Counted from the first letter of the stretch, positions 27,723-35,658 are shown. The stretch is DNA of 38,565 nucleotides from Pseudobdellovibrionaceae bacterium (GCA_014378775.1 JACMMZ010000002.1:1-38565), one strand, 5' to 3'. Translations and numbers: made by a program. The notes: a model not told the origin generated them from the letters alone.

Positions 27723-28676
27723 ATGCTTTTTCCTGAAATCTTACAAGGTGGCCGACAGTTTTCTCCTGTGCAATCTATGCTTTTACCGTGGTTGTGTATT
27801 CTTCTCATCTTCACTCAGTTTCAGTTTCGATTCTCGATCCTGTCGGAATTGCAACAGCTGTCTCTTTTTCTGCACCATGGTTGCCTGGATCAGCTTCCAA
27901 ATTCATCCACATCTCAAGCTACACTAGCTGCTTTAGTCTGCGGCAAAAATTTTGAAAGCTTTTCTGACAGGCAACTTTATTCCGCTACGGGATTGATCCA
28001 TTTATTCGTTGTATCCGGCTCTCATTTGATTCTCATTCAAAAAATATTGACACAAATCAGCCAGTTTTTTTTCAATAAATTCTTTGTCGGCGGACTGGTG
28101 GTGCTTCTTTTTTTGTACGCAGCCATGTGTTTGTTTAATCCGCCCGTCACCCGCAGTTTTATTTTTTTACTGATTTCACTTGGGCTTCATGGAAATCATC
28201 AGCATTGGCCAAAACATTATATATTACTCTTGGCCGGTCTTTCGACCATCAGTCTCAATTACCAATGGGTAAATTCTTTGAGCCTTCAAATGAGCTGGCT
28301 GGCAGCCCTCGTGTTAGAAATTTATGCCGAAAAATTTAAATCTTTTTCGATTTTTTTCAGACAAATCATTTTTTACACTTCATTTACTTTTTGCTTTTTA
28401 GGTTTGGGTTTTCCACAGATCAGCACCATTGTTATCTGCGTATTGGTCACGCCGCTTCTAGAATATATTTTATTTCCTTTTGCTTTACTCACAGTCATTT
28501 TTCACCCCCTTGAGCCGCTTTTCTCTTATCTCTTGATCAGTCTGAACAAGTCATTGGCAGCCTTTGAATTTTTTTCTCGACCCAGTTATTTAGAAATTTC
28601 GACGGTTTCTTTTTTGAATTGGGCTCTTATTTTTCTCTGTCACTTCATTTTATTTTTTCGAAAGCCCCGGTCTTAA
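27723..28676 (+). CDS. ComEC/Rec2 membrane channel domain (competence), stand-alone
   Basis: This 317-aa polytopic membrane protein carries the ComEC competence-domain signature ATGLIHLFVVSGSHL (88-102) and NPPVTRSFIFLLISL after it. About eight hydrophobic segments are visible. ComEC forms the inner-membrane channel for single-stranded DNA in transformation. Typical ComEC is about 700-800 aa; here the N-terminal OB-like domain is missing and the C-terminal metallo-beta-lactamase domain is the next gene, one base after this stop. An orphan TATAAT lies 17 nt upstream. The start has no Shine-Dalgarno. Confidence 0.85.
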   Translation: MLFPEILQGGRQFSPVQSMLLPWLCILLIFTQFQFRFSILSELQQLSLFLHHGCLDQLPNSSTSQATLAALVCGKNFESFSDRQLYSATGLIHLFVVSGSHLILIQKILTQISQFFFNKFFVGGLVVLLFLYAAMCLFNPPVTRSFIFLLISLGLHGNHQHWPKHYILLLAGLSTISLNYQWVNSLSLQMSWLAALVLEIYAEKFKSFSIFFRQIIFYTSFTFCFLGLGFPQISTIVICVLVTPLLEYILFPFALLTVIFHPLEPLFSYLLISLNKSLAAFEFFSRPSYLEISTVSFLNWALIFLCHFILFFRKPRS

Positions 28677-28677
28677 A

Positions 28678-29394
28678 ATGAAATTTTTTGTCTTTTTGAT
28701 TTGTTTTTTTAAATTAACTCTTCTTCAAGCTCCAGTTCGTGTAGATTATTTTATTATTCGTGATGTCGGCCAAGGATTGTGGGCGACAAGGATACAAAAT
28801 GATAGCTGTGATCATTTTGATTTTGGCGGAGAAATTTTTCAATCGAAAAAGCTTAAAAAGCAGTTTATATCCCAGTGTTCGAACCGAAAAAATATCCTTC
28901 ATCTTTCTCATGCTCACTGGGATCATTACGCTTTTCTAGACCTTATTTTTCAAAACTCGATAAAAACGTGCTGGGCCGTTCGACCTCCAGAACATTTGAT
29001 TAACGAACCGCGTGGGATCCCTTATTGCGAAACGGCCGGTCAAATTATTTACTATAATTCGAACAGCACAAATAAAAATGATCGATCGATCATCCAACAA
29101 TTTCATTCATTTTTAATGCCCGGAGATTCTTCGACAAAAATGGAGAAGCTTTGGCAAGGTCGATTAAGATATTCCAAGCCAAGTATCAAATACCTTGTCT
29201 TGGGTCACCACGGAAGCCGCACGGCCACGGGTGATGGCTTACTTCGTGATCTTCCTGGCCTTCAACAAGTCGTTGCTAGCGCTCGGTTTCAGAAGTATCG
29301 GCATCCCCACGCGGAGACCGTTAAAAAATTAAAAAAATTTGGAGTTCCCCTGATCAAGACGGAAGATTGGGGTGATATTCAAATTAATTATTGA
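28678..29394 (+). CDS. ComEC-type metallo-beta-lactamase domain as a separate exported protein
   Basis: This 238-aa protein has a hydrophobic start (MKFFVFLICFFKLTLLQAPV, signal or anchor) and then the fold of the ComEC C-terminal domain. It shows IIRDVGQG, the metal ligands H78-x-H80-x-D82-H83 in LSHAHWDH, MPGDSS, LVLGHHGSRTATGD and ASARFQKYRHPH. In ComEC this domain is thought to degrade the non-transported strand or help process DNA at the channel. The export signal would put it in the periplasm or on the membrane, beside the channel protein encoded just upstream. Its 3' end overlaps the convergent lipoprotein gene by 11 nt. Confidence 0.87.
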   Translation: MKFFVFLICFFKLTLLQAPVRVDYFIIRDVGQGLWATRIQNDSCDHFDFGGEIFQSKKLKKQFISQCSNRKNILHLSHAHWDHYAFLDLIFQNSIKTCWAVRPPEHLINEPRGIPYCETAGQIIYYNSNSTNKNDRSIIQQFHSFLMPGDSSTKMEKLWQGRLRYSKPSIKYLVLGHHGSRTATGDGLLRDLPGLQQVVASARFQKYRHPHAETVKKLKKFGVPLIKTEDWGDIQINY

Positions 29395-31201
29395 TCGGTA
29401 CAGTTTGCGGTGATCCCTGCGTGTTTGTTTTAAACCCCGATCCGCACTTATCCTGAATCCCTTTGGTCTGAGAAATATTATTCAGATACATGATCGAATC
29501 GAGTTCGCCTTCGAGCGCCGTTCCTAATCGATCTAAAGCCCGCTCGCTATCGGCTAAATGATTTGTACCTAAACTGGTTTCATCAAACCAATTACGATTA
29601 AAATCGACTTTTTTACCTTCGGCGATCGATCTTGAACTGTACCACTGATCACGTTTTATTTTAAAAACAAACATCCAGTGTTTGCAACCGTCGGCCGGAG
29701 AATTGACCGTTACGCCCGGAGAAGTAAAACCATCAGAGGCTTGCATCTCAAAACTGCTGGCGACAAAAGGAGAATAGGCTTGAGTTTTAATTTTTTCCGA
29801 ACCCGAAACCTTATCATCGTACCCACTGGCGTACCAGTCGGTGTGACGATTGACTGAATTTCTCAGCCTTTCAAACGCTAAGCCTTTGTCAGGATGATTT
29901 GTACCCAATCCCGTTATGGTGTTAAAGCCTAAGTCATTTCGTTTCCAGTATTCAGTTTGATTATTTAAAAACTCCGGTAAAAATTTTGGCTTGTCTTCAC
30001 GACCTGAATGATCAAAGGCCATTCCCAAATTTGAATAGCTTGGGTATACAGTCACGTTGTCCTCACTGTCTGCAAATAAGGAATCTAATTCACGGCTGTG
30101 AAATAACCATGTCGCAAGACCTGCACGGGCTGCAGACCAACGGTGAGCAAACGGCGCGGTAAAATAATCTTGGCAAATATTGGGGTTGGCGGCAAATTTT
30201 TCTTTCACGCTTTCTTTAAGTATGATTTGTCCATCTGCAGATCGCATACAGCTGTTGGAAATCGTCGATGAATACCAAATCATGCCGTTTGATTCCGGAG
30301 AGTTTGGTTTAAAATTTGAATCTCCACGGAAGTCATACAAATAATCTTTATCTTCAGCAGAACAGAAATTACTTTTATCTTTGAATCTTTTGTAGTCATT
30401 TCTGTATTGCGCATACGTTGTATCTGAATCGAAATTTTTCTGAGGGATAACATATTTATGAAAAATGTATTTTGTTTCACAAATCGTGTAGGGCTCAACC
30501 GGAGATTCTTCTTGGTAAATCCCCATTTTCACCGGACCCTGGATTTTGTCATCGGCACCCGTTGTTTCCAGCGAAGCTTGCATTCTTTTTTTCATATTAT
30601 AAATTTTAACGGAATTATTAATGTAAAACTGATAAGATTCAGCCGACATACTTTTCCAAAGATGATCTGTTTTTAAATTGATCGGTACCTGCGATTTGAC
30701 GGTTAATTTATTCATCTGAGTTACCCATTTAATTTTTTCTTTAATCAATGTCGGGCGATCACGAAACTCACCGCACAATAACGTCAAAAAAACATGAGCA
30801 TTTTTATGACCCTCATCCGTTTGAGGAATGTTGGAAGGAAAACTTGAAGGTGGTTCTACCAATGCCTTTCCATTTTTTAAACCGTAAGCATAAAGAGGAC
30901 CTGAATAAAAATAGAAACTCTGCGGTTCTACCAACGCTAATTTTTTAGCGGCAGAAATAACCTGAGCATTTTTGTAGTTAGGCACGGGAACTTCGACCGA
31001 ATTTCTGACTCCCACACAATAATCATTCCAAATTTTTTCCAGTTGATCGGCCGAGCTATTGACCGGAGGTAAAGCTTCGACAACAATCCCTGCTGCTGCT
31101 GGAGTGCGATCTAAGCCTACGGGATGAGGGGAAACACAAGCTGCTAAGCCTAAAACCGTCAGCGAGCTGGCTACAAATTTCGCTGGTATTTTATAAATCA
31201 T
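29384..31201 (-). CDS. Large lipoprotein; C-terminus weakly resembles ADP-ribosyltransferases
   Basis: This 605-aa protein starts at the ATG at 31201, backed by the Shine-Dalgarno AAAGGAAA; an ATG eight codons earlier is less likely. The lipobox LAA|C22 makes it a lipoprotein. The body has no family I can name. Near the end, SPFVASSF (F479, S482-S483) is followed by an FVFKIK strand and, 80 residues later, Glu564-Gly-Glu566 in ALEGELDSIM. That spacing recalls the STS and ExE elements of Arg-specific ADP-ribosyltransferases. The partner Arg is not obvious, so this is a weak inference. It lies 32 nt after the PLD lipoprotein gene in the same run. Confidence 0.7.
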   Translation of the reverse strand: MIYKIPAKFVASSLTVLGLAACVSPHPVGLDRTPAAAGIVVEALPPVNSSADQLEKIWNDYCVGVRNSVEVPVPNYKNAQVISAAKKLALVEPQSFYFYSGPLYAYGLKNGKALVEPPSSFPSNIPQTDEGHKNAHVFLTLLCGEFRDRPTLIKEKIKWVTQMNKLTVKSQVPINLKTDHLWKSMSAESYQFYINNSVKIYNMKKRMQASLETTGADDKIQGPVKMGIYQEESPVEPYTICETKYIFHKYVIPQKNFDSDTTYAQYRNDYKRFKDKSNFCSAEDKDYLYDFRGDSNFKPNSPESNGMIWYSSTISNSCMRSADGQIILKESVKEKFAANPNICQDYFTAPFAHRWSAARAGLATWLFHSRELDSLFADSEDNVTVYPSYSNLGMAFDHSGREDKPKFLPEFLNNQTEYWKRNDLGFNTITGLGTNHPDKGLAFERLRNSVNRHTDWYASGYDDKVSGSEKIKTQAYSPFVASSFEMQASDGFTSPGVTVNSPADGCKHWMFVFKIKRDQWYSSRSIAEGKKVDFNRNWFDETSLGTNHLADSERALDRLGTALEGELDSIMYLNNISQTKGIQDKCGSGFKTNTQGSPQTVPINN

Positions 31202-31233
31202 ATATTTTCCTTTAATTCTCTTCATTTTTTCGA

Positions 31234-32712
31234 TTACTTAATCTCGGGGGCCTCGACGAGCATATCTTTAACAAACGGAGTTGTGGGAAGTTGGTTTGGA
31301 GCCGTCGCCATAGTATCCCACATTTTGGCGTAATGATTTGAAAATTGTTGGACCACTTCCGGGATCATAATGAAATATGAATTTTCCCAGTTCGTTTTAA
31401 ATCCCGCACCCGTCAAGTTAGCTGATCCCGTGTAGACCGAAGTAAAGTCTCCGTTTTTGTCCGCAAAAATAAGATACTTACTATGATGAAGCTGATGCTC
31501 ATCCGCGTTCGTCTCCATAAATTTAGCTTCGGCGCCACGATCAGTTAATTTTTTAATATTGTAGTACTCGGCCGGCATGACATCACTCAAACCTTTAAAT
31601 TCTTTAAACTGAGCATAGAAAGTATCATCATCGGCAACAATTCGTATTTCTGGTCGATCGTTCTTAGCCTTCATACGCGCATCGAGAGCATTCAACATTT
31701 TGTTGTAAAAAAAGCGGTGGGCGCCAATCCAGATTTTGCCGGCCGTTTCGATTCCGGGATACACGCCATCACCTTGAATCATGTATTCCGACGCCGTTTT
31801 AATTCCATCCGTCACGCCTTTTTCGGCTTCACCTTCTCCGGGCACAAAGAAAACCTTAACATCTTTTTCGACCGGCGTTTTAATAGAATCGCGACAAGTT
31901 CTGATGGATTTTATATAGGCCGTGCGGCTGTGGCCTGAATCTTCTCCCCACTCCGCTTTCATGGCACACAGGTGCGCCTGAGCAAATTGAGACTGGGAAT
32001 TTGTGGTGATAAAATTCCAATTTTCATGATGGATCACGGGGCCGGAGCTCATATTACCCGAACTGAAAACAACTTTAAATTCACCCGGCGTATTCGGGTT
32101 GATGATAAAAAATTTGTTATGAGCGTAACCGAGACCACCTTCAGATCCGCGAAGTTTTCTTTCAATATTGGCGGGATTACAAGCTATAAGTTCATTGGCC
32201 CGATTCATATCCTGTCCGTTATCTAAGACAAATTTAATTTTAAGATTCCGCTCCTGAACCGCTTTACACAAAGCATTCTTAACGGCCTTATTGCTGAATG
32301 AAAAATACGTGAAGTAAACTTCTGTGGTCTTTGGATCATCAATCCAGGTGATTAATTTATTTTGAGGACTAGTTAGTTGATCACCCGAGCGTTTTAAATC
32401 ATAAAAATTTTTGCAGTACACATTTTCTGGTTTCTGCGTCAGTTTTTTTCCAGTTTGATCCTTTACTTCGACTTCACTTTTATATTTGTAAACGCCACAT
32501 TTAGGATCGGTGAATAAGACTTCGTACTTGTGAGGAGTATACTGCGATAACATGTCGAAGGATTGCGGAGCCAAATATTCAGGCGGTTGTTGAGCCGAAA
32601 CTGGATCAGGTAAAGATTGAGCCACTTCGCGAGAATAACGGCTCGTTTGGCAACTCACTAAAAGCGTAAGGATAGAAATTAGCAAAACGAATTTGTGGGA
32701 AATGATGTGCAT
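31234..32712 (-). CDS. Phospholipase-D-fold (HKD) lipoprotein
   Basis: This 492-aa protein starts at the ATG at 32712, with AAGGAG 6 nt upstream. The signal peptide ends in lipobox LVS|C21. It has two HKD-type half-sites: H198-N-K200 (AHNKFFII) followed by SSGNMSSG, and H410-S-K412 (HHSKYLIF) followed by YTGSANLTGAG. Two half-sites in one chain form the PLD active site, which cleaves phosphodiesters in lipids or nucleic acids. Lipid anchoring places it in the inner or outer membrane. Substrate unknown. It is the second of two adjacent PLD-fold genes. Confidence 0.88.
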   Translation of the reverse strand: MHIISHKFVLLISILTLLVSCQTSRYSREVAQSLPDPVSAQQPPEYLAPQSFDMLSQYTPHKYEVLFTDPKCGVYKYKSEVEVKDQTGKKLTQKPENVYCKNFYDLKRSGDQLTSPQNKLITWIDDPKTTEVYFTYFSFSNKAVKNALCKAVQERNLKIKFVLDNGQDMNRANELIACNPANIERKLRGSEGGLGYAHNKFFIINPNTPGEFKVVFSSGNMSSGPVIHHENWNFITTNSQSQFAQAHLCAMKAEWGEDSGHSRTAYIKSIRTCRDSIKTPVEKDVKVFFVPGEGEAEKGVTDGIKTASEYMIQGDGVYPGIETAGKIWIGAHRFFYNKMLNALDARMKAKNDRPEIRIVADDDTFYAQFKEFKGLSDVMPAEYYNIKKLTDRGAEAKFMETNADEHQLHHSKYLIFADKNGDFTSVYTGSANLTGAGFKTNWENSYFIMIPEVVQQFSNHYAKMWDTMATAPNQLPTTPFVKDMLVEAPEIK

Positions 32713-32807
32713 GGAATCTCCTTGTTGAGGCGAAACATACCCCAATCAATAGATTACAAACTAAACGATCGAAAACAAACTACTGAATAGCTGGACTCAA
32801 CGTGGGT

Positions 32808-34742
32808 CTAGTTTGTGGGCTCAGGATTTTCCCGGATGACCGGAGAAAGTGTGATTTTTCGATCGAGGGGTCGGCTAGCGACCCAGATTTTTTCGTCAAA
32901 CTCGTGGTTATAATCTCGTACGATGTCTAAGGCCATTTTTTTGTTGGTGATCGTCACTAAGTTCTCATCGTTTAAGTCATTACCACTGGTTGACCAGTTC
33001 TGCGAGCCAATGATGATAGTTTCTGGCTGGTACGTCCCGTTTTTCAAACGACGAGTCAGGCTGGCTGTTTTGTGGTGATTTAATCCCGGCCAGTCACTGC
33101 TACGAACCTCAACTGATCCTTTAGATTTTCCGGCAAAGGGGTTTTTATCGTATAAATTTCCGTTGGGACTGTTAGCCCATGAACCGTTTCCAGCACCGCT
33201 TAATCGATCGGTTGCAATTTGAATCTCAACTCCTCGAGCAACGGCCAATTGCAGAGCGCGAACCAATTCGAAACCGCCACTTCCAAACATACTAATTCTG
33301 AGTCGATCACCTTTTCGCGCGGAGTAGAGTAAAGGAAGAATAACTCGATGTTCAGCATCGTCGGTCGGCGAGAAATGCACACGAACCTGGGTGCCATCAT
33401 CGAAAATAAAATTTCGATGAGTATTAGGACGCTTTTTATTGTGAAAGGCTCCGGTCACTAAAGATTGAGGATGGACGGAATTTGAGTTCGGTTCAAACAT
33501 TTCCTGAAATTCATCTCGGAAAGCCTGCGCGATTAAATCATTCTTAATTAAAATCGACATGTTGGCATTTTCTTCGCTGCCCATGCATGATCGCGATATA
33601 TTTGCGGTTCCAGTCCAAACCGACTTCTGGTGATTTTCATCTTCGAAAACAATAAACTTATTATGCATTATTCCGGCATAAGGGTATTCGACATGGACCA
33701 TCGCTTCTTCATTTGTCTGCTTTTTGGAATTCAGTAACCGCATAAATTCCATCGTGGCGCCGTACTGGAAATTCATTCGCGTCACGGTTTGATTTGAAGT
33801 ACTAGCCGCTTTATTCACAGACATCCAAACGGCATCATTAATCGCAGCCATTCCGTTACCTTTATAGGATGGATCAATCTTCAGCAGCTCAGTGGCCACA
33901 TGAGACTTGGCCGAGTTCGGTTTCATCAGTTGAGTTTCATTTATCGCATCTTTTAAAAAACCTTCGACCCATAACGGTGCTCCGAAAGCCCAGTTCGATC
34001 TGTTTTCCGGCACGATATACGAGTAATCAATTACTTGGGCTAAGTTTGTAATAAAATAAGAATCGCCTTTTTTGATAAGGTCGTAATCGCGCAGCATGGT
34101 ATTAGGAAGCGGAGAATCATTCACATCGACCACCGCTTGCACCGAAATATCCTGATCTACTTTTTCTTTCACAGCTTGAAAAAAAGGAGACATGGTGCCT
34201 TCGATATCATCAATTCCGTACAGAGCCATCCAAATAGATTTAATATTTTTTTTTCTAATTTCACTAGCTAGTTGCATGGCCAAAGTTTTCTCAGGAATGA
34301 TATAGGGCTTTTGCTTTTTGATGTAGTTATCAAACCAACCTTGAGTAAAGTAGTAATTAATATCTAATTTTTTACCTGCATTAATTGGCTTACCTAAATC
34401 TTTATTTATATCAATTCGCATGAAAGCAGACGGCATAATCACAGGTGCGGATTCTAGACAGGTGATATCTTCGAAGCTATCGCATAAAATAAACTGAAGT
34501 GATGATCCCAACAATCGCGGAACATCAGTTTTATAATTTTTCATATTCGGAGTCAGCTGGATCTGGGCAAGATAGGTTGCAATTTTAATCACTTGATCGG
34601 GGGGCGCATGCTTTAAAGCTTTTCTGAGATAGAGAACATTATCGGAAACAGCTTTCATGTCTTTTGTAGTAAAAGTCTGGGCCTGAGCCCAAGAAAGTTG
34701 AACCGTCATGACGAAACAAATAAGATGAATCAATTTAGTCAT
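32808..34742 (-). CDS. Secreted phospholipase-D-fold (HKD) protein
   Basis: This 644-aa protein has a cleavable signal peptide (MTKLIHLICFVMTVQLSWAQAQ) and no lipobox, so it is periplasmic or secreted. HKD half-site one is H360-N-K362 (MHNKFIVFED) with WTGTANIS after it; half-site two is H556-H-K558 (LNHHKTASL) with IIIGSQNWSTSGND after it. A perfect GGAGG Shine-Dalgarno lies about 7 nt before the ATG. The domain order matches the lipoprotein paralogue downstream, so the pair probably arose by duplication and one copy gained a lipid anchor. A role in attacking prey membranes or nucleic acid is plausible but inferred. Confidence 0.9.
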   Translation of the reverse strand: MTKLIHLICFVMTVQLSWAQAQTFTTKDMKAVSDNVLYLRKALKHAPPDQVIKIATYLAQIQLTPNMKNYKTDVPRLLGSSLQFILCDSFEDITCLESAPVIMPSAFMRIDINKDLGKPINAGKKLDINYYFTQGWFDNYIKKQKPYIIPEKTLAMQLASEIRKKNIKSIWMALYGIDDIEGTMSPFFQAVKEKVDQDISVQAVVDVNDSPLPNTMLRDYDLIKKGDSYFITNLAQVIDYSYIVPENRSNWAFGAPLWVEGFLKDAINETQLMKPNSAKSHVATELLKIDPSYKGNGMAAINDAVWMSVNKAASTSNQTVTRMNFQYGATMEFMRLLNSKKQTNEEAMVHVEYPYAGIMHNKFIVFEDENHQKSVWTGTANISRSCMGSEENANMSILIKNDLIAQAFRDEFQEMFEPNSNSVHPQSLVTGAFHNKKRPNTHRNFIFDDGTQVRVHFSPTDDAEHRVILPLLYSARKGDRLRISMFGSGGFELVRALQLAVARGVEIQIATDRLSGAGNGSWANSPNGNLYDKNPFAGKSKGSVEVRSSDWPGLNHHKTASLTRRLKNGTYQPETIIIGSQNWSTSGNDLNDENLVTITNKKMALDIVRDYNHEFDEKIWVASRPLDRKITLSPVIRENPEPTN

Positions 34743-34844
34743 AACTTAACCTCCAATGAAGTTAGCTTCGAAATGAGTGCCAACTGAGATCGTGCAGGAA
34801 GTTTTTAGGGCCTTGAAAAGCCAGCAAAAGCCCTTAATTGATCA

Positions 34845-34870
34845 ACACCGGTGTCAAAGTTTTTGACACC
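34845..34870. repeat. Overlapping inverted repeats upstream of the PLD gene
   Basis: GGTGTCAAA (34850-34858) and TTTGACACC (34862-34870) are perfect inverted copies around a 3-nt loop. The palindrome ACACCGGTGT (34845-34854) overlaps the left arm. No T run follows on either strand, so it is not a plain terminator. It lies 9 nt after the protease stop and about 100 nt before the PLD start on the transcribed strand. It may be an operator or an RNA-processing hairpin. Confidence 0.65.
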
Positions 34871-34878
34871 CACTCAAA

Positions 34879-35658
34879 TTATTTCTTAAGAATATAGCCT
34901 GATTTAATCAAAATATTTTTTATCGGAGACTGTGAGATAAACATCGCATAGTTTTCTAAGGCAGGCGTAGTGGTCCCGTCTTCCATCGTTTCTCCATCAC
35001 CTGATTTGTGCAGTCCAACGATTTTACCAGTGACGACGTCTAAGACGGCCGCTCCACTGCTCCCGGCCAAGGTATCACAAACATGATGCATCAAAGCTGG
35101 AAATAAACTTTTTGCGGTCACAGCTTCGGTGCGGCAGTACTTCGACCACGACAAGGGGGCCTCTTCGGGATAAGAAAAAATTGTTACAAAAGCGCCGGCT
35201 CGCAATTTCTTGCTCCAATCAATATTTATTTTTGCTGACGGAGGGTTAGAAACTTTCATAATTGCGAAGTCAAAATTTTCAGTATCACTTCTTTGTGCGG
35301 CCACGATTTCTAAACAAGTCGAAGTCTTTGGATTTACGGTTCCTTCGGTCCATGCCCATTGAATCGTTTCATCGGAACATTTTTCGTTCAATTTTAATTT
35401 CTCGTCAAAAAATGTTTGCCAGAAACAATGGCCTGCCGTTAACACGAAACCCTGACCAATATGGGTCACCGTGCAACCCGAACTCAATTTTCCGATCGCG
35501 CTCATCGAATTTTTAAACAGAGTCGGAATATTTGAAAAGTCGGATTTAACGAGAACGAGATCATTCGCACCGATGATACGATCTGGTCCCGCCCAAGCCG
35601 GTTGAACAAATAAAGTTTTCGTAGAAATCAAAATTGTTAAAATTAAGGCTATCTTCAT
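34879..35658 (-). CDS. Secreted trypsin-like serine protease
   Basis: This 259-aa protein has a signal peptide (MKIALILTILISTKTLFV and an AWA|G-type cleavage site). The chymotrypsin-fold triad is visible: His77 in VLTAGHCFW, Asp130 in ENFDFAIMKV and Ser201 in LAGSSGAAV. Cys62 and Cys78 sit where the loop disulfide around the catalytic His usually forms. The Ser motif is GSSG, not the usual GDSGGP, which is seen in distant S1 families. Its start overlaps the rlmE stop (ATGA). A secreted hydrolase beside the PLD genes fits an envelope or prey-digesting role, which is inferred. Confidence 0.88.
   Translation of the reverse strand: MKIALILTILISTKTLFVQPAWAGPDRIIGANDLVLVKSDFSNIPTLFKNSMSAIGKLSSGCTVTHIGQGFVLTAGHCFWQTFFDEKLKLNEKCSDETIQWAWTEGTVNPKTSTCLEIVAAQRSDTENFDFAIMKVSNPPSAKINIDWSKKLRAGAFVTIFSYPEEAPLSWSKYCRTEAVTAKSLFPALMHHVCDTLAGSSGAAVLDVVTGKIVGLHKSGDGETMEDGTTTPALENYAMFISQSPIKNILIKSGYILKK

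Follow-up and report, generated by a model that had tools for sequence, protein, structure and literature searches.

The stretch of DNA analysed here (the window) is a single contig of 38,565 nt from a 2.34-Mb draft genome of a Pseudobdellovibrionaceae bacterium (GCA_014378775.1, JACMMZ010000002.1:1-38565). As a sequence-only reading had described, it carries four consecutive minus-strand genes for exported products, and all four open reading frames are intact over the positions given in Table 1, each with an export signal. They encode a trypsin-like protease, two proteins with paired HKD motifs (PLD1 and PLD2) and a large lipoprotein (LIPO).

Table 1. Genes and intergenic features of the exported cassette and its flank in the window
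Feature	Coordinates	Strand	Description
LIPO	29384..31225	-	605 aa from ATG 31201; lipobox LAAC; orphan family
PLD2	31234..32712 (open frame to 32745)	-	492 aa; two HKD domains; lipobox LVSC; PLDc_2 1e-19
PLD1	32808..34742	-	644 aa; two HKD domains; cleavable signal peptide; extra N-terminal region; PLDc_2 E 1e-25
Protease-PLD1 spacer	34743..34878	-	9-bp hairpin GGUGUCAAA..UUUGACACC just past protease stop
Trypsin-like protease	34879..35658	-	259 aa, exported; Pfam Trypsin_2 4e-10; flanking gene

The first ATG of LIPO lies 8 nt past the PLD2 stop and 62 nt separate PLD1 from the PLD2 open frame; because of this spacing, PLD1, PLD2 and LIPO look like one operon. Translation of PLD2 is likelier to start at ATG 32712, which has AAGGAG upstream, than at the listed TTG 32745. 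The protease gene stands 136 nt from PLD1, with the hairpin directly past its stop (folding z -2.0), and promoter and terminator scans gave no signal above shuffles. Next to LIPO, comEC occupies window positions 27723-29394 as two adjacent ORFs, one for the membrane Competence domain and one for the metallo-beta-lactamase half. A two-ORF comEC is also present in L026, L130 (B. qaytius), L131 (G002) and L132 (L and G numbers designate the loci and genomes compared), so the split is genus-wide and no assembly error.

The protease scores 41 bits with Trypsin_2 (cut-off 27.6) and has the AGH, DFA and GSSG motifs. Among the relatives with the cassette, the two closest alone (L025 and L026) keep it, along with rlmE; in B. 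qaytius and others the cassette is without it. Given this distribution and the spacer with its hairpin, the protease drops out of the cassette to which it had first been assigned. In L025 and L026 an exported gene of the GP30.3/NADAR type lies between the protease and PLD1 (L025 2880-3539, L026 5451-6161; E 3e-7 to 1e-3); it stays under the Pfam gathering scores for NADAR and GP30.3 and is hence called NADAR-like only. The window genome contains no NADAR match. NADARs otherwise undo guanine ADP-ribosylation (PMC11125620), and an export signal is odd in this class of erasers.

The PLD pair

In PLD1 the HxK motifs are HNK360 (H360/K362) and HHK556 (H556/K558), followed by GTAN and GSQN, and in PLD2 they are HNK198 (H198/K200) and HSK410 (H410/K412), followed by SSGN and GSAN. 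The histidine and lysine of both HKD motifs are retained in each protein, and in neither does the aspartate occupy its standard place. With two HxK motifs, G-S/T-x-N downstream and PLDc_2 scores above cut-off, both proteins belong to the two-HKD PLD superfamily. BLASTP aligns them with an E-value of 2e-5 over 77 residues. On this comparison the paralogous pair of the sequence-only reading is a weak and ancient one and no recent duplication.

The lipid anchor of PLD2 is probably in the outer membrane, because the +2 residue of its lipobox is Q. The sequence-only reading had attached weight to the pairing of one secreted with one lipid-anchored copy; in L026 and L029, however, the signals of PLD1 and PLD2 alike resemble a lipobox, and since PLD anchors vary and LIPO mostly has an ordinary signal peptide (see below), the split does not appear meaningful.

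Profile searches of the PDB with the PLDs return mitochondrial PLD/Zucchini (1.5e-12), NucT (6.7e-12) and Nuc (9.9e-9) as the best-matching solved structures; the sole phospholipase, 7e0m, scores 0.0046 and ranks below eight mitoPLD or nuclease chains. By this measure PLD1 and PLD2 are nearer to nucleases than to phospholipases and, their best solved relatives not being phospholipases, they do not group with lipid-specific phospholipases D. The nearest NCBIfam models are also NucT nucleases, although scores of only 21-31 bits (23.7 and 31.3 against a curated cut-off of 297; 20.7 against 225) do not reach the cut-offs of NF010492/NF010491. NucT of Helicobacter pylori (PDB 6EHI) and Nuc of Salmonella (1BYR) share HKD chemistry and export with PLD1 and PLD2, but they are shorter than 200 aa and have a single HKD motif per chain, whereas PLD1 and PLD2 carry two HKDs and are paired, with an orphan protein as partner. 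We infer that the PLD substrate is nucleic acid, which is not certain from sequence.

A trio at two chromosomal sites

Among 60 relatives searched, LIPO is found in 11, relatives of PLD2 in 18 and relatives of PLD1 in nine; the PLD1 family is kept in L025, L026, L029, L030, L033 and L109. A synteny search across the Bdellovibrionota, the check that the sequence-only reading had itself proposed, found the neighbourhood conserved in relatives. Within the genus, four further species keep PLD1-PLD2-LIPO, which occupies two unrelated loci. At the first it lies between the rlmE/protease genes and comEC (window, L025, L026), and at the second the same order precedes ftsQAZ (L030, which is B. qaytius, and L033), with a small lipoprotein gene inserted ahead of LIPO. 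In another family (L029) the genes are rearranged to small lipoprotein-LIPO-PLD1-PLD2. The comEC neighbourhoods of B. qaytius (G013), G002 and G001 keep the other comEC neighbours and are without the cassette. Because the same order occurs at two sites and comEC neighbourhoods exist without it, the trio changes sites as one unit. The description as a non-standard exported cassette holds, and the cassette is shared with relatives at two loci and, rearranged, with another family. With three genes it is smaller than first described, and it is also older and more mobile.

A link between comEC and the cassette was considered and rejected as site-specific, the cassette being absent at comEC in B. 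qaytius, G002 and G001. In G001 a PLD2-PLD1 pair without LIPO lies beside ftsQAZ (L097, 5447-9170), at the site of the B. qaytius cassette and in the opposite direction.

Identity to the window proteins across L025, L026, L030 and L033, respectively, is 80, 60, 55 and 54 % for LIPO, 75, 64, 59 and 59 % for PLD2, and 71, 58, 48 and 48 % for PLD1. This parallel drop fits the expectation for co-inheritance.

The genome of L030 (G013) is that of 'Bdellovibrio sp. qaytius' (CP025734), a cultured predator in the genus of the window, and G002, a single-contig, 2.66-Mb relative, is presumably the predator P. exovorus JSS. B. qaytius and P. exovorus JSS are epibiotic predators (PMC11656739). The LIPO profile has no match at 1e-5 in the genomes of the genus Bdellovibrio (g6) or in G002, and the profile of the PLD pair (A2) has none at E 1e-20 in the Bdellovibrio-genus genomes. 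Because LIPO is absent from these genomes, predation can do without it; judged by its distribution, the cassette is an accessory and not a core predation tool, some predators being without the set.

The LIPO family and its partners

LIPO, first described as a 605-aa lipoprotein of unknown type, has no relative in Pfam, NCBIfam, PHROG or the PDB, where scans gave chance matches only, and PDB searches with LIPO profiles of 10 and 24 members found no match. The full-length AF2 model is of medium quality (pLDDT 68, pTM 0.74), and Foldseek (PDB, BFVD) and VIA-align searches with it returned no relative; a separate model of the C-terminal part (pLDDT 51) was left out of these fold searches. A profile built from ten LIPO proteins matches 24 of the 369 Bdellovibrionota genomes searched, and these belong to 15 genera. 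No relatives were found among plasmids, phages and viral contigs.

The family is held together by the invariant motifs CGEFRD-K, FRGD-N, RHTDWY, SPFVASS, W..DE and E...DR. In an alignment of 27 members the invariant residues are C144, E146, R148, D149, K157, C242, C281, F292-R293-G294, N297, N306 and R355, then D424, R453-H454-T455, W457, S478-P479, V481-A482, S484, W510, E542, E554 and D558; E567 is near-invariant (25/27). Dozens of charged or polar residues do not vary even between the genus and distant families, which leads us to think that LIPO is an enzyme of a nucleic-acid pathway rather than a scaffold. Such strict conservation suggests an enzyme activity so far absent from family libraries.

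By pattern, a lipobox is found only in the window, L025, L026 and L038 among 24 aligned members, the rest having ordinary signal peptides. A small lipoprotein gene of one family directly precedes LIPO in L030 (9471-9941), L033 (9441-9920), L027 (9377-9955) and L029 (9303-9893); since LIPO is without a lipobox in these four loci, the small lipoprotein may supply its anchor. In two relatives (L031 8474-11437, L037 9146-11806) the N-terminal part is enlarged by an insertion of about 430 aa. Others have apparently decayed: the LIPO gene of G006 is interrupted by TAG (L039 8787-10505) and that of G012 has an altered C-terminus (L034 7471-9348).

Counting as neighbours the genes within two positions, LIPO adjoins a gene for an exported protein of the PLD or DNase I-like type in 19 of 28 loci (the window and 27 others) and in 12 of 15 genera, a post hoc count in that the DNase I-like partner was discovered by looking beside LIPO; nine loci have neither. 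Both partner types are present in L036, L112 and L114. A PLD or DNase I-like partner occurs in 23 of 24 genomes with LIPO as against 104 of 345 without it (Fisher 9e-11), a comparison of related genomes that is uncorrected for kinship and uses partner profiles built from LIPO neighbours.

In nine sequences of the DNase I-like partner, residues N107, E138, H278, D348, N350, D399, D520 and H521 are invariant and correspond to the catalytic and metal sites of DNase I; the pattern N, E, H, D-x-N, D, D-H places this partner in the EEP superfamily. Its profile finds DNase gamma (2.9e-6) and DNase I as the best PDB matches. This alternative partner, which belongs to LIPO loci of distant relatives, is 480-800 aa long with large insertions and weak Pfam scores; none lies beside the window LIPO. 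Because two unrelated nuclease folds share one partner, LIPO, nucleic acid is the simplest candidate for a substrate common to the set.

A candidate exported nuclease module

We lean towards reading PLD1-PLD2-LIPO as a portable exported nuclease module that would digest nucleic acid of the prey (or of the environment). Outside the cytoplasm, the two PLDs would cleave DNA or RNA by the usual HKD chemistry, through a covalent phosphohistidine intermediate and with no metal. PLD2 and, in this lineage, LIPO would be lipid-anchored, most probably to the outer membrane, and PLD1 would be soluble. LIPO would work on that substrate too, in a further step that processes nucleic acid or its fragments, and the freed nucleotides or oligonucleotides would feed the predator. 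Prey as the source of the nucleic acid and catalysis by LIPO are, like the substrate itself, what we infer.

Membranes had been named among the likely targets, and an attack on them is unlikely. PLD1 and PLD2 would then be phospholipases acting on phospholipids or cardiolipin of the prey (or of the cell's own membranes), and LIPO would insert or present lipids. HKD enzymes do include phospholipases, the first-ranked PDB entry bears the name 'mitochondrial cardiolipin hydrolase', and all three proteins are exported, two of them lipid-anchored. However, the other leading PDB matches are nucleases, with a true phospholipase at only 0.0046, the nearest NCBIfam models point the same way, and the partner for which the PLDs are exchanged beside LIPO resembles DNase I and not a lipase.

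It is rather improbable that LIPO is an exported R-S-E ADP-ribosyltransferase effector, delivered with the nucleases and acting on prey nucleic acid or protein. The proposed residues are R293 in FRGD, SS483-484 in SPFVASS and E567 in EGE, of which R293 and S484 are invariant in the 27 members and E567 is present in 25; in the AF2 model R293 is at a strand end and E567 ahead of the last strand. The exported NADAR-like gene inside the L025/L026 cassette would suit such an activity, and the best hhalign segment against ADPrib_exo_Tox relatives is the S-S motif. That alignment, of the LIPO profile with 20 ADPrib_exo_Tox relatives of the phylum, nevertheless has a probability of 0.06 %, and neither Pfam, NCBIfam and PDB profiles nor Foldseek with the medium-quality model gave a match. 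The STS region is modelled with pLDDT <50, all members have A where STS would begin with S, and the gap of 190 aa between R and S is far above usual. Many further invariant residues are left unaccounted for. The likeness to DarT-NADAR and to R-S-E ADP-ribosyltransferases is one of motifs and of an exported neighbour in two relatives, whereas LIPO matches them in neither profile nor fold and the window genome is without NADAR. A bolder version is likewise rather improbable: LIPO would be the first of a new class of exported enzymes, possibly a nucleic-acid ADP-ribosyltransferase, deployed by predators with interchangeable nucleases, the NADAR-like eraser serving self-protection in some species. 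ADPrib_exo_Tox (PF03496) domains occur in 63 of 369 Bdellovibrionota genomes, commonly in proteins some 240 aa long, and none is found in the window genome.

Least probable of all, and very doubtful, is an accessory role in competence (DNA uptake), in which nucleases in the periplasm would process DNA on its way to the neighbouring ComEC channel. In its favour, the window, L025 and L026 have comEC beside the cassette in convergent orientation, and H. pylori NucT, a PLD-superfamily nuclease, has been implicated in natural transformation as well as purine salvage (PMC5714352). Against it, the cassette lies away from comEC in B. qaytius and L033, comEC retains its other neighbours but has no cassette in G002, G013 and G001, and in the distant loci L108-L119 no recognised homologue of the window comEC adjoins LIPO.

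For the exported nuclease module, NucT is the nearest functional parallel. A link to predation is plausible, because B. qaytius is a predator and PLD-like proteins of B. bacteriovorus (Bd1257, Bd1516 and Bd3603) were found in killed prey (PMC11003981). B. bacteriovorus also secretes nucleases in sequence during its predatory cycle (PMC7925074), among them Bd0934 and Bd3507. These proteins come from a relative and are secreted during predation, but neither the PLD pair profile (at E 1e-20) nor LIPO (at 1e-5) has a match in the genomes of that genus.

The new element is the orphan LIPO family with its exchangeable nuclease partners. Many Bdellovibrionota are predators of bacteria, and the ways in which they break down prey DNA and RNA outside their own cytoplasm are understood only in part. 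Epibiotic predators take their food while remaining outside the prey and would therefore profit from nucleases at their surface. A mobile three-gene block in a cultured epibiotic predator, together with an undescribed family that, throughout the phylum, associates with two unrelated nuclease folds, offers a testable entry point into this process.
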